Origin: an uncultured Caryophanales bacterium
Lineage (GTDB): Bacteria > Bacillota_I > Bacilli_A > Acholeplasmatales > Anaeroplasmataceae
Length of the DNA stretch: 38,081 nucleotides
Assembly: GCA_946405105.1 (NCBI GenBank)
Contig: CAMJFY010000012.1
Location: 1-38,081 of the forward strand
Reading direction: 5' to 3'
Shown here in pieces: positions 9,964-37,050 of the stretch. A program made the translations under genes and the position numbers. The notes under the pieces were generated by a model. The model was not told the DNA's origin. It saw only the letters and a program-made list of their open reading frames with translations, and did not search any database. Each line of letters starts with the position of its first letter. The stretch's first letter is position 1.

Positions 9964-10977
9964 ATGATAAGAATTGGTGTAGATGCAAACGGTGGAGACT
10001 TAGGAGTAGAGACTACAGTTCCAGCAGCAATGAATGCCGTAAAGATGTTTGATGATATTGAAATAACATTATATGGTGATGAAAATAAAATTAAACCTTT
10101 ATTAACTAATTCTGAAAGAATTAAAATAGTTCATACAGATAAAACATTAAGTATGGGTGAAAAGGATCCTGTTAGAGCTGTAAGAAAAGAAAAGGATTCA
10201 TCACTTTGTATGGCTATGTATGCAGCTAAAAATGATGAGGTTGATGGTGTAGTTACATCAGGACCTACTCAATGTGTTGTTTTAGCATCACATGTAATAA
10301 TTAGAAGATTACCTCAAATGGAAAGAGTTGCATTATGTCCAATCATTCCAAATTTTGATGGAAAGCATAGATTAATGCTAGATGTTGGAGCTAATGTTGA
10401 ATTAAAACCAGAACATTTAGGTCAATTCGCAATTTTTGCTACAATCGCAGACAAGGAAATCTTCGGTGTAGAAAATCCATCTGTTGGTTATTTAAATATC
10501 GGTTCTGAGCCTGGTAAGGGAAGAGAAATCGATAAGGATGTATATTATTATTTAAAGGATTTAAAGGGAATTAATTTCTATGGAAATATTGAACCAGATC
10601 AAGCAATTAATTGTCCTACAGATATTATTTTAACTGATGGTTATAGTGGAAACATTTGCCTAAAGGCAGTAGAAGGTACTGCAAAAACAATGGGTAAAAT
10701 GCTAAAGCAAGAGGTATATTCATCACTTAAAAATAAGATTGGTGGATTATTCCTAAAGAAGGGTCTTCGCCGTTTCGCAAAGAGAATGGACTCTAAAGAG
10801 GTTGGTGGAGCAATGATTTTTGGTATTAATAAGCCAGTTGTTAAAGCACATGGTAATTCAGATGCTTATGCATTTACATCTGCAATTAGACAATTAAGAC
10901 AAATGATTGTATCTAATATTATTGAGAAGGTTGTTCCATATCTTCCTGAAATCGAAAGGAAGGAAGAAAATGCTTAA
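9964..10977 (+). CDS. plsX: Phosphate acyltransferase PlsX
   Basis: Converts acyl-ACP and phosphate to acyl-phosphate, the donor for the first acylation of glycerol-3-phosphate. The N-terminus has DANGGD at residues 6-11 (DAMGGD in most homologues), followed by the GE-KDPVRAVR and SGPTQ segments of the family. The length of 337 residues is normal. In many Firmicutes plsX sits with fabD-fabG-acpP; those genes are absent here, and rnc follows directly with an 8-base overlap. With fakA close by, both routes to acyl-phosphate (from FakA and from acyl-ACP) are encoded in the same region. Confidence 0.95.
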   Translation: MIRIGVDANGGDLGVETTVPAAMNAVKMFDDIEITLYGDENKIKPLLTNSERIKIVHTDKTLSMGEKDPVRAVRKEKDSSLCMAMYAAKNDEVDGVVTSGPTQCVVLASHVIIRRLPQMERVALCPIIPNFDGKHRLMLDVGANVELKPEHLGQFAIFATIADKEIFGVENPSVGYLNIGSEPGKGREIDKDVYYYLKDLKGINFYGNIEPDQAINCPTDIILTDGYSGNICLKAVEGTAKTMGKMLKQEVYSSLKNKIGGLFLKKGLRRFAKRMDSKEVGGAMIFGINKPVVKAHGNSDAYAFTSAIRQLRQMIVSNIIEKVVPYLPEIERKEENA

Positions 10978-11641
10978 TTCTAATAAATTAGAGGAAGCCA
11001 TTGGCTACCAATTTAAAAACAAGGATTTATTAACAATCGCATTGACACATTCATCATATGCGAATGAGCATGATATTGAATGTAATGAGAGAATGGAATT
11101 TTTAGGCGATGCAGTGTTAGAGTTATCTATGTCTAAATATCTTTTCTCAAAAATTCATTTAGATGAAGGTGTATTAACTAAAACAAGAGCTAAGGCAGTA
11201 TGTGAGGGTGCATTAAATGTATATGCTGCAAAAATTAATTTAGGTCAATATTTATACCTTGGTAAGGGCGAAGAGGCTACTGGCGGTAGAAATAGACCTG
11301 CAATTATTGCCGATGCATTAGAAGCAGTTTTAGGGGCAATCTTTTTAGATTCTTCATTTGACAATGCATATGAAATTGTAAATAGAATCATTATACCTTA
11401 TATGGATGAGGTATTACAAAATAAAGATTATAAATCACAATTACAAGAAAAGCTTCAAAGTGAAAAGAGAACTATTCATTATGAAATCACAAAGGATGAA
11501 GGACCTGCAAATAATAAAACATTTGAGGCAGTAGTTTATATGGATGATATTCTAATGGGTAGAGGAACTGGAAAAACAAAAAAGGAAGCTCAGCAAAATG
11601 CTGCAAAGAACGCATTAGAAAAGGAAGCGCAAATTGGATAA
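10970..11641 (+). CDS. rnc: Ribonuclease III
   Basis: Cuts double-stranded RNA in rRNA precursors and structured mRNAs. The catalytic domain shows NERMEFLGDAVL with E40, E43 and D47, and ADALEA with D115 and E118, so the full metal-binding set is intact. A dsRNA-binding domain (about 155-222) ends in the KKEAQQNAAKNALE helix. I took the ATG at 10970, giving 223 residues, because GGAAGG lies just upstream and the family begins here; it overlaps the plsX stop by eight bases. A catalytically dead relative is encoded at 36088. Confidence 0.95.
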   Translation: MLNSNKLEEAIGYQFKNKDLLTIALTHSSYANEHDIECNERMEFLGDAVLELSMSKYLFSKIHLDEGVLTKTRAKAVCEGALNVYAAKINLGQYLYLGKGEEATGGRNRPAIIADALEAVLGAIFLDSSFDNAYEIVNRIIIPYMDEVLQNKDYKSQLQEKLQSEKRTIHYEITKDEGPANNKTFEAVVYMDDILMGRGTGKTKKEAQQNAAKNALEKEAQIG

Positions 11642-29893: not shown

Positions 29894-29915
29894 TGTAAGC
29901 GTTTTATTGTATAAT
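29887..29915 (+). promoter_or_regulatory. Promoter of the pectate lyase gene
   Basis: TTTACA at 29887-29892 and TATAAT at 29910-29915 with a 17-base spacer. The -35 box lies inside the cre site. The 130 bases before it, from 29755, are AT-rich and show nothing else I can name. Confidence 0.75.
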
Positions 29916-29960
29916 CCGAAGTGTATTAACAAAAGATACTTATTTAAAGGGGAGGACAAA

Positions 29961-32231
29961 ATGAAAATTAAAAAGGTATCAGCAGTTTTTGCAATTACAG
30001 GACTAGTAGCAGCGTCTACAGTTACTGCACTAACAGTATCAGGTATTGCATCTGATAAAAAGAACGAAATCGTATTAGATGCAGCTACAGTTACTAGTAA
30101 TTCAGGAGTACAAATCCAAAGCGTTAAAGGAGACCAAGAATCACTTTATGCTACATTCAAGGGCGTAAGTGGTGCATCTGGCTATAATGCTTATGTGAAG
30201 AAAGGAAATGGAAGCTATGTTAAGCTAGATACTCAATTAATCAGACAATATTCTGGTTATTATAGAGTAGACGCAGTAGGTCTTTCAGCAGGTTCTTATT
30301 CACTAAAGATTATTCCAGTTATTAATGGCTCAGAAACAACAAATGCAAAGCAATGTGCTTTAGCTACTAACATTGATGTAGTTAGCTATGATAGAACAGG
30401 ATTTGCATTTAAGAAGAATGACAAGAATTCTACAGGTGATGCATCTGGTGCATACAATTCAGATGGTACATTAAAGTCTGGTGCTAAGGTATTCTATGTC
30501 ACTTCAAAAACAGCAAAAACAATTAGTACAACAGTAGTAAGCGACTCAAAGGGAACTAAAAAAACATTTACAGGTTTACAAGCAATCGTTACTGCATATC
30601 AAAAGGGCTTTGACACTACACCAGTAGCTTTTAGATTTATTGGTAAGGTTAATGCATCTGATATGGATTCTTTAGGATCATCTTCAGAAGGACTTCAAAT
30701 CAAAGGAAAAGCAGCCGGCTCAAAGATGAATATGACTTTCGAAGGTGTTGGTAATGATGCAACAATTTATGGATTCGGTTTCTTAATTAGAAATAGTAAT
30801 AATGTAGAAGTAAGAAACCTAGGATTCATGACAAAGATGGATGATAACGTATCTATCGACACAGGAAACTATAATATTTGGGTTCATGACTGTGATTTCT
30901 TCTATGGTGCAGCTGGATCAGGAGATCATGCTAAGGGTGATGGTGCTCTAGATATTAAGGGTACTTTATATGCAACATTATCTTATAACCATTTCTGGGA
31001 TACAGGTAAATCAACATTAAATAGTAATGGTGATGTAGTTGATTACGTTTCATATCATCATAACTGGTATGACCATTCAGATTCACGTCATCCAAGAGTA
31101 AGAAAATCTACAGCTATCCATGTTTACAATAACTATTTCGATGGTAATGCTAAATATGGTATTGGAGCAACAACAGGATCTTCAATCTTCTCTGAAGCAA
31201 ATTACTTCAGAAATTGTAAGAACCCTATGTTATCATCACTTCAAGGTACAGATGCTCAAGGACAAGGAACATTCTCATCTGAAACTGGTGGTATGATTAA
31301 GGCTTACAATAATAAGATTACTGGTGCAGCAGGATTAATTTATGCAAATGCTGGCGCTGGTACTCAAGGTGCAACATCAGGAGCTAATTCTAAATCATTT
31401 GATGCTTATTTAGCATCTAGTAGAAATGAAACAGTATCATCTTCATACAAGACAGTATCTGGTGGTACAACATATTCTAACTTCGATACTAATTCAAGTA
31501 TTATGTATTCTTATAGCGTTCAAACACCAGATGCAGCAGTTAGCACAATTAAATCATATGCTGGTCGTGTTGATGGTGGAGATTTGAAATGGACATTCAA
31601 CAACGCAACTGAAGATACAAATTATGGTGTAATTGCAGGCTTAAGAAGCGCAATTGATGGATATTCATCAAAGTTGGTTTCTTATCAAACTACAACATAT
31701 TCTACAAATAGTAGCTTAAATGTAACTGAATCAACAATTGGTGGTTCAAGCTCAAGCTCTGGCTCATCTAGCTCAGGATCTTCAAGCTCTGGCTCATCAA
31801 GTTCAGGTTCATCAAGCTCAGGAAGTGGAAGTAGTTCATCAGGTTCAAGCTCTTCAGGTTCAAGCTCATCAAGTAGCTCAGCAACAGCTTCTGGATTATT
31901 AACATTCAAGGGTAAGAAGGTTAATGATTCTGCAAAGATATTTACAGTAGCTGGAAGCTATAAAGAAATGAGCTATACATTAGATGGAACTAAATTAGAT
32001 TATGCATTAAAGGTTGACTCTAAGGGTTCAATTACGTTCACATTAAATCAATCAACAAAGATTACTGTATATGCTAAGGGTAAATCAAATGGTACAAAGA
32101 TTGTTGTTGGTTCAACTACTCAATCTTTAACTACAGATGTTAAGGCATATACATATACATTAGCTAAGGGAACTTATACAATTAAGCGTTCTTCAGGCGA
32201 ATCATATATCTTTGCTGTAAAGCTTGGATAA
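29961..32231 (+). CDS. Secreted pectate lyase, polysaccharide lyase family 1
   Basis: Cleaves polygalacturonate by beta-elimination outside the cell. The 756-residue protein has, in order: a signal peptide (1 to about 30); a small fibronectin-III-like domain (about 45-115); a PL1 parallel beta-helix (about 125-560); a Ser/Gly linker (593-645) of SSSSG-like units; and a C-terminal beta-sandwich (646-756) likely to bind carbohydrate. In the lyase, DGALDI near residue 326, YHHNWYDHSDSRHPRVR (about 365-381, holding the catalytic Arg and Ca-site neighbourhood) and HVYNNYF match family 1. The ATG at 29961 follows GGGGAGG. No sorting signal or anchor is seen, so it should be released or held by its C-terminal domain. 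Confidence 0.92.
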   Translation: MKIKKVSAVFAITGLVAASTVTALTVSGIASDKKNEIVLDAATVTSNSGVQIQSVKGDQESLYATFKGVSGASGYNAYVKKGNGSYVKLDTQLIRQYSGYYRVDAVGLSAGSYSLKIIPVINGSETTNAKQCALATNIDVVSYDRTGFAFKKNDKNSTGDASGAYNSDGTLKSGAKVFYVTSKTAKTISTTVVSDSKGTKKTFTGLQAIVTAYQKGFDTTPVAFRFIGKVNASDMDSLGSSSEGLQIKGKAAGSKMNMTFEGVGNDATIYGFGFLIRNSNNVEVRNLGFMTKMDDNVSIDTGNYNIWVHDCDFFYGAAGSGDHAKGDGALDIKGTLYATLSYNHFWDTGKSTLNSNGDVVDYVSYHHNWYDHSDSRHPRVRKSTAIHVYNNYFDGNAKYGIGATTGSSIFSEANYFRNCKNPMLSSLQGTDAQGQGTFSSETGGMIKAYNNKITGAAGLIYANAGAGTQGATSGANSKSFDAYLASSRNETVSSSYKTVSGGTTYSNFDTNSSIMYSYSVQTPDAAVSTIKSYAGRVDGGDLKWTFNNATEDTNYGVIAGLRSAIDGYSSKLVSYQTTTYSTNSSLNVTESTIGGSSSSSGSSSSGSSSSGSSSSGSSSSGSGSSSSGSSSSGSSSSSSSATASGLLTFKGKKVNDSAKIFTVAGSYKEMSYTLDGTKLDYALKVDSKGSITFTLNQSTKITVYAKGKSNGTKIVVGSTTQSLTTDVKAYTYTLAKGTYTIKRSSGESYIFAVKLG

Positions 32232-35456: not shown

Positions 35457-35951
35457 ATGTCTTTGTTAAATGATTTAGCTTTAAAAATGATGGAATATTA
35501 TAAAAATGACCCAAAAAGAATTAGTCATTTTATGAAAGTGCATAGCTATGCTAAGCTAATTGGTGAGGAGGAGCATCTAGATAAGGATATGCTATTTATC
35601 ACTGAGGCTGCTGCATATATTCATGATATAGGTATTAAAAATGCTCTAGCAAAATATAATAGCTCAATTGGTATGCTACAAGAAAAAGAAGGACCAGATG
35701 AAGCTAGAAAGATGCTAATAGAGCTTGGCTTTAGTGATGATCAAATAGAAAGAATATGTTATATTGTTGGAAATCATCATACATATTCAAAAATTGATAA
35801 TATTGATTTCCAAATAGTAATAGAAGCTAATCTAATAGCTAATTATTACGAGGATAATCTACCACTTGATAATATTTTATATTCTTATGACCAGGTGTTT
35901 AAAACAGAAACTGGTAAAAGGATAATGGAAAACATTTATAACTTAGCATAA
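35457..35951 (+). CDS. HD-domain phosphohydrolase-like protein
   Basis: A small (164 residues) all-helical HD-superfamily protein, a fold that uses metal ions to hydrolyse phosphate esters, often of nucleotides. H24 (in ISHFMKVHSYA), H56-D57 (HDIG) and the histidine pair 107-108 (GNHHTY) match the metal-binding pattern. The final ligand, usually Asp in an EAD-type motif, reads EAN at 123-125, so the last metal ligand may be altered. ACGGAGGT precedes the ATG and the gene is a single unit with promoter and terminator. Substrate unknown. Confidence 0.8.
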   Translation: MSLLNDLALKMMEYYKNDPKRISHFMKVHSYAKLIGEEEHLDKDMLFITEAAAYIHDIGIKNALAKYNSSIGMLQEKEGPDEARKMLIELGFSDDQIERICYIVGNHHTYSKIDNIDFQIVIEANLIANYYEDNLPLDNILYSYDQVFKTETGKRIMENIYNLA

Positions 35952-35992
35952 AAGATGGCCTCAAAGTAGAAGCTTAGGGGCCATCTTTTTTT
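35951..35992 (+). terminator. Intrinsic terminator of the HD-domain gene
   Basis: AAAGATGGCCTC pairs with GGGGCCATCTTT (one G-T pair) around a 14-base loop, with seven Ts. Confidence 0.88.
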
Positions 35993-36024: not shown

Positions 36025-36053
36025 TTGACATAAAATACTATATTTGTTATAAT
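36025..36053 (+). promoter_or_regulatory. Consensus promoter of the RNase III-like gene
   Basis: Perfect TTGACA (36025-36030), 17-base spacer, perfect TATAAT (36048-36053) with a TGT extension before it. No other promoter in the window matches consensus so fully. Confidence 0.88.
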
Positions 36054-36087
36054 TACAAAGATTTCTGCCAATTTAGGAGGTGTTATA

Positions 36088-37050
36088 ATGAAGATTGATA
36101 TTAATGACGTTGAAGCATCAATTCAATATGAATTTAAAAACAAAATGCTACTACAACAAGCATTTATGATTACTGAAAACGACAATATTCCTTTTTCTAG
36201 TGAGGCTTTAAGGAATATAGGTAAAAGAACTATTAATTATTCATTAACACAAATTTTAACTGGTTTTTATGGATATTATAGTGAAAAAGGTATGTTTAGA
36301 ACAAAGAATTCTAATGAAGTATTTAATGATTTATTAAATAACTTATATTCAAAGGATATCTTTGCAAGAAATATAGAGCTTTTAGGTTTAGGAAAATATT
36401 TAGATTCTTCAGATAATGATTTCTTTAATGCAGATAGAAAACTATTTGAGGCAATAGTAGGTGCTGTTGCTCTAGATTCTAATTGGAATATGACTGTAAT
36501 AAATGATGTTTTATCATTTATATTAGATATAGATTATTATCTAGATAATGGATTTGATGATTTAAATCGTAATTTCGTTGTATTAGTTCATAACTGGACT
36601 ATTGAAAAGAACAGTCCACAGCCTGTATATGATTATGCCCAAGGCGATTCTGATACTGTATTATCATTTAAGTGTACACTTCATTTATTCTTAGATAATG
36701 TTGATTTTACATTTGTAGAAGAGGCTGAAAATAAATCAGTAGCGAGAATGAAGGCTGCAAAAAAGGCTTATACATATTTAGTTGAAAACAATTATGTTAA
36801 GACATTAAAGAACATTAATATTGAGGTTAAGCTTGAAACAGCAATGATGCAATTAGAGAAATTAGCAATGGATGGTAATTTCTCATTACCTAACTTCGAG
36901 GTAAATCCAAGTGGCAAAGGATATACTGCAATTTGTTCAATAGATGAATGTGATATGTCATTTAGTGGTTATGGTAAATACGATAGTGATGCCATTAATG
37001 AAGCTGCACTAAAGATGTTAAAGCACGTTTTAGGTTACGATATTCAATAA
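36088..37050 (+). CDS. RNase III-like pseudoenzyme with two dsRNA-binding domains
   Basis: A 320-residue relative of RNase III. The first 25 residues (VEASIQYEFKNKMLLQQAF) align with rnc (LEEAIGYQFKNKDLLTIAL). The catalytic motifs are destroyed: NERMEFLGD of rnc reads SEALRNIGK here, so E43 becomes R42 and D47 becomes K46; ADALEA reads RKLFEA, so D115 becomes K118. Only E39 and E121 remain. Two dsRNA-binding-like domains follow, at about 160-232 (ending KSVARMKAAKKAYTYLVE) and 249-316 (ending DAINEAALKMLKHVLG). It should bind but not cut dsRNA. TAGGAGGT precedes the ATG. Cotranscribed with the hydrolase gene after 20 bases. Role unknown; an RNA chaperone or ribosome-assembly role, as for mitochondrial mL44, is only an analogy. 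Confidence 0.72.
   Translation: MKIDINDVEASIQYEFKNKMLLQQAFMITENDNIPFSSEALRNIGKRTINYSLTQILTGFYGYYSEKGMFRTKNSNEVFNDLLNNLYSKDIFARNIELLGLGKYLDSSDNDFFNADRKLFEAIVGAVALDSNWNMTVINDVLSFILDIDYYLDNGFDDLNRNFVVLVHNWTIEKNSPQPVYDYAQGDSDTVLSFKCTLHLFLDNVDFTFVEEAENKSVARMKAAKKAYTYLVENNYVKTLKNINIEVKLETAMMQLEKLAMDGNFSLPNFEVNPSGKGYTAICSIDECDMSFSGYGKYDSDAINEAALKMLKHVLGYDIQ

Follow-up and report, generated by a model that had tools for sequence, protein, structure and literature searches.

What does a bacterium gain from a second RNase III whose cutting site has lost most of its acidic residues? The question is raised by a gene on contig CAMJFY010000012.1 (assembly GCA_946405105.1) of an uncultured Caryophanales bacterium (Anaeroplasmataceae), of which positions 1 to 38,081 of the forward strand, hereafter the window, have been analysed. 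An intact RNase III gene, rnc, lies in the same window. The product of the second gene, which we will call the window protein, had been described in an earlier note as a catalytically dead RNase III paralogue and double-stranded RNA (dsRNA) binder with two dsRNA-binding domains (dsRBDs). We tentatively favour the reading that it is a functional RNase III-fold protein that does not cut and works by binding. Some uncultured bacteria keep, beside a normal RNase III, a conserved relative whose cutting site is charge-reversed and which, in place of cutting, probably holds RNA or a partner protein.

The architecture of the window protein has been assigned by profile search, an AlphaFold2 structure and a fold search as an RNase III fold and two dsRBDs. 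The RNase III fold, for which the earlier note had suggested a structure check, is found at residues 4–157 by matches to bacterial RNase III (PDB 2nug, 7r97), and the RNase III profile TIGR02191 matches residues 9–229, dsRBD1 included, with a low score. The fold-search rows mostly cover residues 1–215, so dsRBD2 is barely probed by that search; the claimed second domain is borne out by the AlphaFold2 fold and by the family profile, which matches a dsRBD of TARBP2 at 247–312 (E-value 4.1e-7) and R2D2 at 161–316 (E-value 2.6e-5).

A tree of 60 proteins, from which the six catalytic columns had been removed beforehand, contains clade A (11 rows, support 100/100, with the window protein), clade C (9 rows, 100/99) and rnc (10 rows, 100/100). 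We will use the term “group B” for the 30 remaining rows outside these clades. Numbered as in E. coli RNase III, two of the six catalytic acids remain in the window protein, E38 (its E39) and E117 (its E121), while E41 is replaced by R42, D45 by K46, D114 by K118 and E65 by N. The first three replacements had been pointed out in comparison with the intact rnc, which retains all six acids; the E65 column is an additional change. The ERLEFLGD-type signature is absent and reads SEALRNIGK. Complete six-acid sets are present in 10/10 rnc and 26/30 group B proteins (one acidic position differs in each of the other four) and in none of the 11 clade A or 9 clade C proteins. Clade A has lysine at D45 and lysine or arginine at D114 in 11/11 and arginine at E41 in 10/11, with E117 retained in 9/11, and clade C has lysine at E117 in 7/9. 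Only six of the 320 columns are always basic in the ten full-length clade A proteins (46, 47, 117, 118, 220 and 309), and four of them (46, 47, 117 and 118) coincide with or adjoin catalytic columns (hypergeometric probability 6e-5, the columns having been picked after inspection of the data). Among proteins that share 35–38% identity with the window protein, a fixed opposite charge at the metal site is not expected from drift alone. Judged by the alignment, the metal site is one that has lost four of its six acids and carries the fixed basic residues K46, R47, R117 and K118. A 208-residue frame from another genus of the same family (L055 in G034) has a degenerate RNase III domain with the acidic set only partly left, possibly another loss of catalysis.

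The ratio of nonsynonymous to synonymous substitution rates (dN/dS) of the window gene is 0.122 against L004 and 0.119 against L005, the two complete pairs, and 0.269 against L006, a 231-residue fragment, with synonymous sites strongly diverged. By domain, the values for the complete pairs and L006 are 0.074, 0.059 and 0.173 for the RNase III domain and 0.24, 0.16 and 0.48 for dsRBD1; the single computable pair gives 0.19 for dsRBD2. By these codon comparisons, the window gene is under purifying selection. Its sigma-70 type promoter matches the consensus at 12/12 positions and is the single such occurrence within the window, as the earlier note had noticed. The clade A promoters match at 10–12 of 12 positions in 11/11 genes, six of them at 12, and TGn before the -10 element is seen by eye in all; the six clade C genes examined have 8–9 of 12. 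A folding test gives no structured leader for the window mRNA (z -0.03). In seven genomes, the window's included, the clade A gene occupies a chromosomal locus downstream of rplKAJL-rsmC, with rsmC upstream and ribosomal protein genes where the stretch suffices; the other four contigs end too soon.

A decaying pseudogene or an annotation artefact could be suspected from the degenerate catalytic site and from the broken state of other copies in the family (L047 in G031, L097 in G259 and L104 in G007:C22), which have in-frame stops or the C-terminal part only and are apparently decaying. Against this stand the dN/dS of about 0.12, the promoter in 11/11, the basic residues fixed at the old site and the open frames in 11/11 clade A genes, one of them cut by a contig end. 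Selection, promoter, and the conserved locus and residues together indicate that the gene is no pseudogene and has not recently been duplicated from rnc; with dN/dS, promoter and synteny all opposed, we reject the pseudogene as hardly credible.

The tree bears on the duplicate as well. All 50 non-rnc rows (A, C and B) lie on one side of the rnc branch with support 100/100, which rules out a recent copy of rnc. Described as a paralogue existing besides the intact rnc, the protein thus belongs to an RNase III family separate from rnc. The support for A and C as a single clade is only 74/84, so the tree does not decide between one and two losses of catalysis.

The clade A protein is present in 11/27 genomes of the genus, the window's own included, and is therefore conserved outside one genome. 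A protein search matched 20 of the 27 at E ≤ 0.001, G024 through rnc alone, and a profile search of 55 family genomes, with the long paralogue defined by frame length and coverage, found it in 19/27 genus genomes and 3/28 others (G031, G040 and G051). With the genus included throughout, matches occur in 32/160 genomes of the order at E ≤ 1e-18, and in 20/395 sampled genomes of the class and 16/392 of the phylum at E ≤ 1e-20; many genomes are incomplete assemblies and the absences are soft. The three clade A subclades correspond to three groups of an rpoB tree covering 24/27 genus genomes, all 11 with clade A among them, a pattern that fits vertical descent of clade A with a putative loss in the G005/G006 lineage. 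In six genomes (G001, G005, G006, G009, G016 and G017; loci L150, L151 and L153–L156) the rpoB match itself is broken in two near window rpoB residue 988–990 within a frame of 1270–1295 residues, as it is, in pieces, in G023; this is an apparent insertion. In G010 (Glu) and G012 (Arg) a tRNA gene lies 63 bases ahead of the start of the clade C gene, tRNA ends being usual integration sites; in G006, G013 and G016 the clade C gene lies upstream of pheST, identified by Pfam in G006 and by cluster membership in G013 and G016 (loci L016, L017, L069, L070 and L080).

Clade A shares its tandem dsRBDs and its descent apart from rnc with group B, without the intact active site. Group B genes have been found on 14 IMG/VR viral contigs, and on 12 of these it comes after genes of a single recombinase cluster, no more than about 1.3 kb away. 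Since three share one stretch, the recombinase-linked viral contigs number 10 distinct ones. In contig L111, the single contig tested, the recombinases are serine integrases (PHROGs, Pfam). Near-identical group B copies occur in three different families (G151, G088 and G452) and on one viral contig. Only 7/30 group B tree rows come from viral contigs; among the non-viral rows, partly inspected, some have recombinase, replication-initiator or restriction genes nearby and others nothing telling. The term mobile therefore describes many group B genes, not all. Compared with named phage and plasmid records, the group B protein L093 gave distant matches only, below 60% identity (12/50,697 and 37/72,556). 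The PHROGs family phrog_28637 fits group B and fits the true rnc best (E-value 2.6e-54), and so represents a general RNase III family; the window protein has no PHROGs match.

In two viral contigs, L117 and L118 (IMG/VR), the RNase III gene is followed by genes of one common family. In L118 this following gene encodes an NYN domain and an OST-HTH/LOTUS domain, which places two RNA-related genes next to each other, and a gene for a D5-type N-terminal domain is nearby. The family members L167 (G568) and L168 (G623), from genomes of about 1 million bases, contain 5–6 in-frame TGA codons; translated with code 4, each yields a long protein whose active-site motifs look intact.

These associations bear on a role in defence or counter-defence, in which a relative of prophage RNase III would block the prophage enzyme or sense phage dsRNA. 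Besides the recombinase genes ahead of intact-site relatives on 12/14 viral contigs (10 distinct), intact ones occur within the genus itself (G005, G008 and G022), and in B. subtilis the toxin-antisense pairs of prophages are under RNase III control (PMC3531473). On the other side, none of five family proteins matches a PADLOC model at E ≤ 0.01, which sets aside a known defence system, and the four clade A neighbour genes scanned with Pfam are metabolic. We rate the defence role as improbable.

For the favoured reading, binding without cutting, the following mechanism can be proposed. The basic patch would stand in for the charge of the metal ions, and an RNA helix may be held uncut in the former RNase III valley, aided by at least one dsRBD. 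The RNA so held (sense-antisense duplexes, stems of mRNA or rRNA) would be shielded from the true RNase III or presented to it. The ancestor may have been a cleavage-competent RNase III from the family frequently met in prophages and genomic islands. In its full form, the proposal is a dedicated, non-catalytic bacterial RNase III, related to a prophage enzyme and domesticated, whose metal site became a fixed basic patch that grips dsRNA without metal. It would shield dsRNA or, as a partner, retune the cell's RNase III; clade C would be separately specialised, with lysine at E117 and mainly the last dsRBD conserved. We consider this complete scenario doubtful. In divergent clade C pairs dsRBD2 is the best conserved part (66% identity versus 31 and 38% elsewhere).

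The E. coli mutant precedent cuts both ways. As reported in PMC8708148, E117K (rnc70) has lost cleavage but still binds dsRNA, and for one lambda mRNA it dominates over the wild type; D45A retains binding. Table 1 of the same source lists E41A, E65A and D114A as lowering dsRNA binding. All three positions are among the four altered in the window protein, where the replacement is not alanine.

Several other observations also weigh against the favoured reading. The window protein is acidic (isoelectric point 4.64, charge -16), both dsRBDs are net negative, and the KKxAK type, which we take to be the dsRBD basic motif, is partial in dsRBD1 (NKSVARMKAAKK) and lost in dsRBD2. By our reading of the alignment, a usable basic motif would lie in dsRBD1 in the window's subclade and in dsRBD2 in L008, L009 and L012. 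The codon adaptation of the gene is middling (0.641). The tree cannot be rooted securely among rnc, A, C and B, since a topology with rnc and clade A on one side is not rejected (approximately unbiased test, p 0.41), so descent from a prophage gene is offered as a proposal only. The order of the clade A subclades conflicts between trees; the gene tree joins the window's subclade to that of G015, G017, G009 and G003 (95/86), and the rpoB tree, on which clade A presence requires three changes, joins the other two (98/98). Lastly, the F42 column holds I, N or T in 11/11 clade A proteins and F or Y in group B. In the description as a catalytically dead dsRNA binder, the lost catalytic residues and the dsRBDs stand by sequence; the binding is a proposal, with the acidic protein and the poorly binding E. 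coli alanine mutants against it.

The nearest rival is a non-catalytic partner of the cell's RNase III, Mini-III or prophage RNase III that alters or blocks cutting. The RNase III domain has been retained and is the best conserved part of divergent clade A pairs (43% identity versus 30 and 31% for the dsRBDs), but the same domain also ranks first in the active group B (51% versus 34 and 37%), and the feature is not specific to A. Candidate partners are present in the same genome, namely rnc and a second RNase III-domain frame of 133–141 residues on another contig (C5:74378), read as Mini-III. The window protein itself is unlike Mini-III, with two dsRBDs versus an RNase III domain without a dsRBD. 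The changed F42 column, which we take to be a dimer contact in E. coli, disfavours a canonical dimer in 11/11, and the acidic charge weighs against the partner and binding readings alike. PMC8708148 gives E. coli F42G, F42D and F42R as inactive (Table 1), and PMC9508840 describes catalytic/non-catalytic RNase III pairs in kinetoplastids. On balance the partner model is unlikely.

A third kind of role, as an intron factor in the manner of RNC1 or as an aid to the maturation of type II CRISPR RNA, is brought to mind by the inactive RNase III domains of maize RNC1 (PMC8708148). Group II intron matches occur in 6/11 clade A genomes versus 4/16 others, but this difference is not significant (Fisher p 0.22), and in the window's genome (91% complete) there is none. 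Cas9 lies above the cut-off in 2/27 genomes, both without clade A, and below the cut-off there are weak partial matches only, some in the window's genome. Neither role is supported by these counts, and we hold them to be very improbable.

The features of the locus are collected below. The window also contains an open reading frame of 774 amino acids with a serine-rich stretch (29907–32231), which may encode a secreted polysaccharide lyase.

Table. Positions within the window of the RNase III-family gene, its signals and domains, and the intact rnc
Feature	Position	Strand	Remark
Coding sequence, RNase III-family protein with catalytic residues lost	36088..37050	+	320 amino acids plus stop
Terminator-like hairpin and T run, end of upstream HD-domain gene	35951..35988	+	-21.9 kcal/mol, z -4.9
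Sigma-70 type promoter TTGACA-N17-TATAAT, TGT before -10	36025..36053	+	12/12 match
Shine-Dalgarno AGGAGGTG	36075..36082	+	sequence reading
RNase III domain, residues 1–156, catalytic site degenerate	36088..36555	+	
Residues R42 to R47 (RNIGKR), replacing the EFLGDA part of rnc	36211..36228	+	K46 and R47 the same in all clade A proteins
Residues R117-K118 at the D114 site	36436..36441	+	R and K/R in 10 full-length clade A proteins
dsRBD1, residues 160–236, partial basic motif NKSVARMKAAKK	36565..36795	+	
dsRBD2, residues 246–316, KKxAK motif lost in window protein	36823..37035	+	AlphaFold2 alpha-beta3-alpha
Intact rnc, RNase III, 223 amino acids, for comparison	10970..11641	+	TIGR02191 240.8 bits, E-value 1.1e-71

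Among the matches listed in a search of the open-access literature (titles and abstract openings), none reports a non-catalytic bacterial RNase III paralogue. In cyanobacteria with extra RNase III genes, one is reported inactive, an outcome put down by the authors to a wrong start codon (PMC10989914). Binding-only effects of bacterial RNase III, otherwise an enzyme, have been seen in laboratory mutants (PMC8708148). If the favoured reading is true, a conserved natural pseudo-RNase III would mean that binding without cleavage has itself been selected in bacteria.

How does the window protein compare with known systems? With bacterial RNase III (rnc, TIGR02191; PDB 2nug, 7r97) it has the fold in common, and differs in the four changed acids, the lost signature and the changed F42 column. 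Class I enzymes have one C-terminal dsRBD and the window protein two. Group B proteins have one or two C-terminal dsRBDs, and their long form, with tandem dsRBDs, aligns over its full length with the window protein; group B mostly keeps the six acids and many of its genes stand beside recombinases, whereas clade A has a single chromosomal locus and its own promoter. R2D2 and TARBP2 of animal RNA interference, whose dsRBDs are matched by the family profile, presumably lack an RNase III domain. The likeness to rnc70, which binds dsRNA uncut (PMC8708148), lies in an acid-to-lysine change in the metal site; the position concerned, E117, is lysine in most clade C proteins. However, rnc70 is a laboratory mutant with one change, and clade A mostly keeps E117 and has its basic residues at D45 and D114.

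The organellar and protozoan relatives offer the other comparisons. The mitochondrial protein mL44 shares the RNase III fold with catalytic residues lost, and a ribosome-associated, mL44-like protein is a further candidate. It is a part of the large mitoribosomal subunit and may be no closer to the window protein than bacterial RNase III is; apart from the fold in common and a single weak Pfam match, an mL44 homologue in particular has no support, so the likeness drawn in the earlier note is reduced to an analogy and a ribosomal role has a low probability. RNC1 of maize chloroplasts is a catalytically inactive RNase III protein, as the window protein appears to be, and is organellar with two RNase III domains instead of one (PMC8708148). 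KREPB6, KREPB7 and KREPB8 of Trypanosoma brucei have an RNase III domain without key catalytic residues and, according to PMC9508840, pair with active RNase III partners in RNA editing. An active paralogue in the same cell is common to them and to the window's genome, but they carry a zinc finger instead of dsRBDs and belong to a eukaryotic editing complex. If the favoured reading holds, clade A would be a bacterial counterpart of mL44, RNC1 and KREPB6–8, and a natural pseudo-RNase III linked to RNase III genes carried by prophages.
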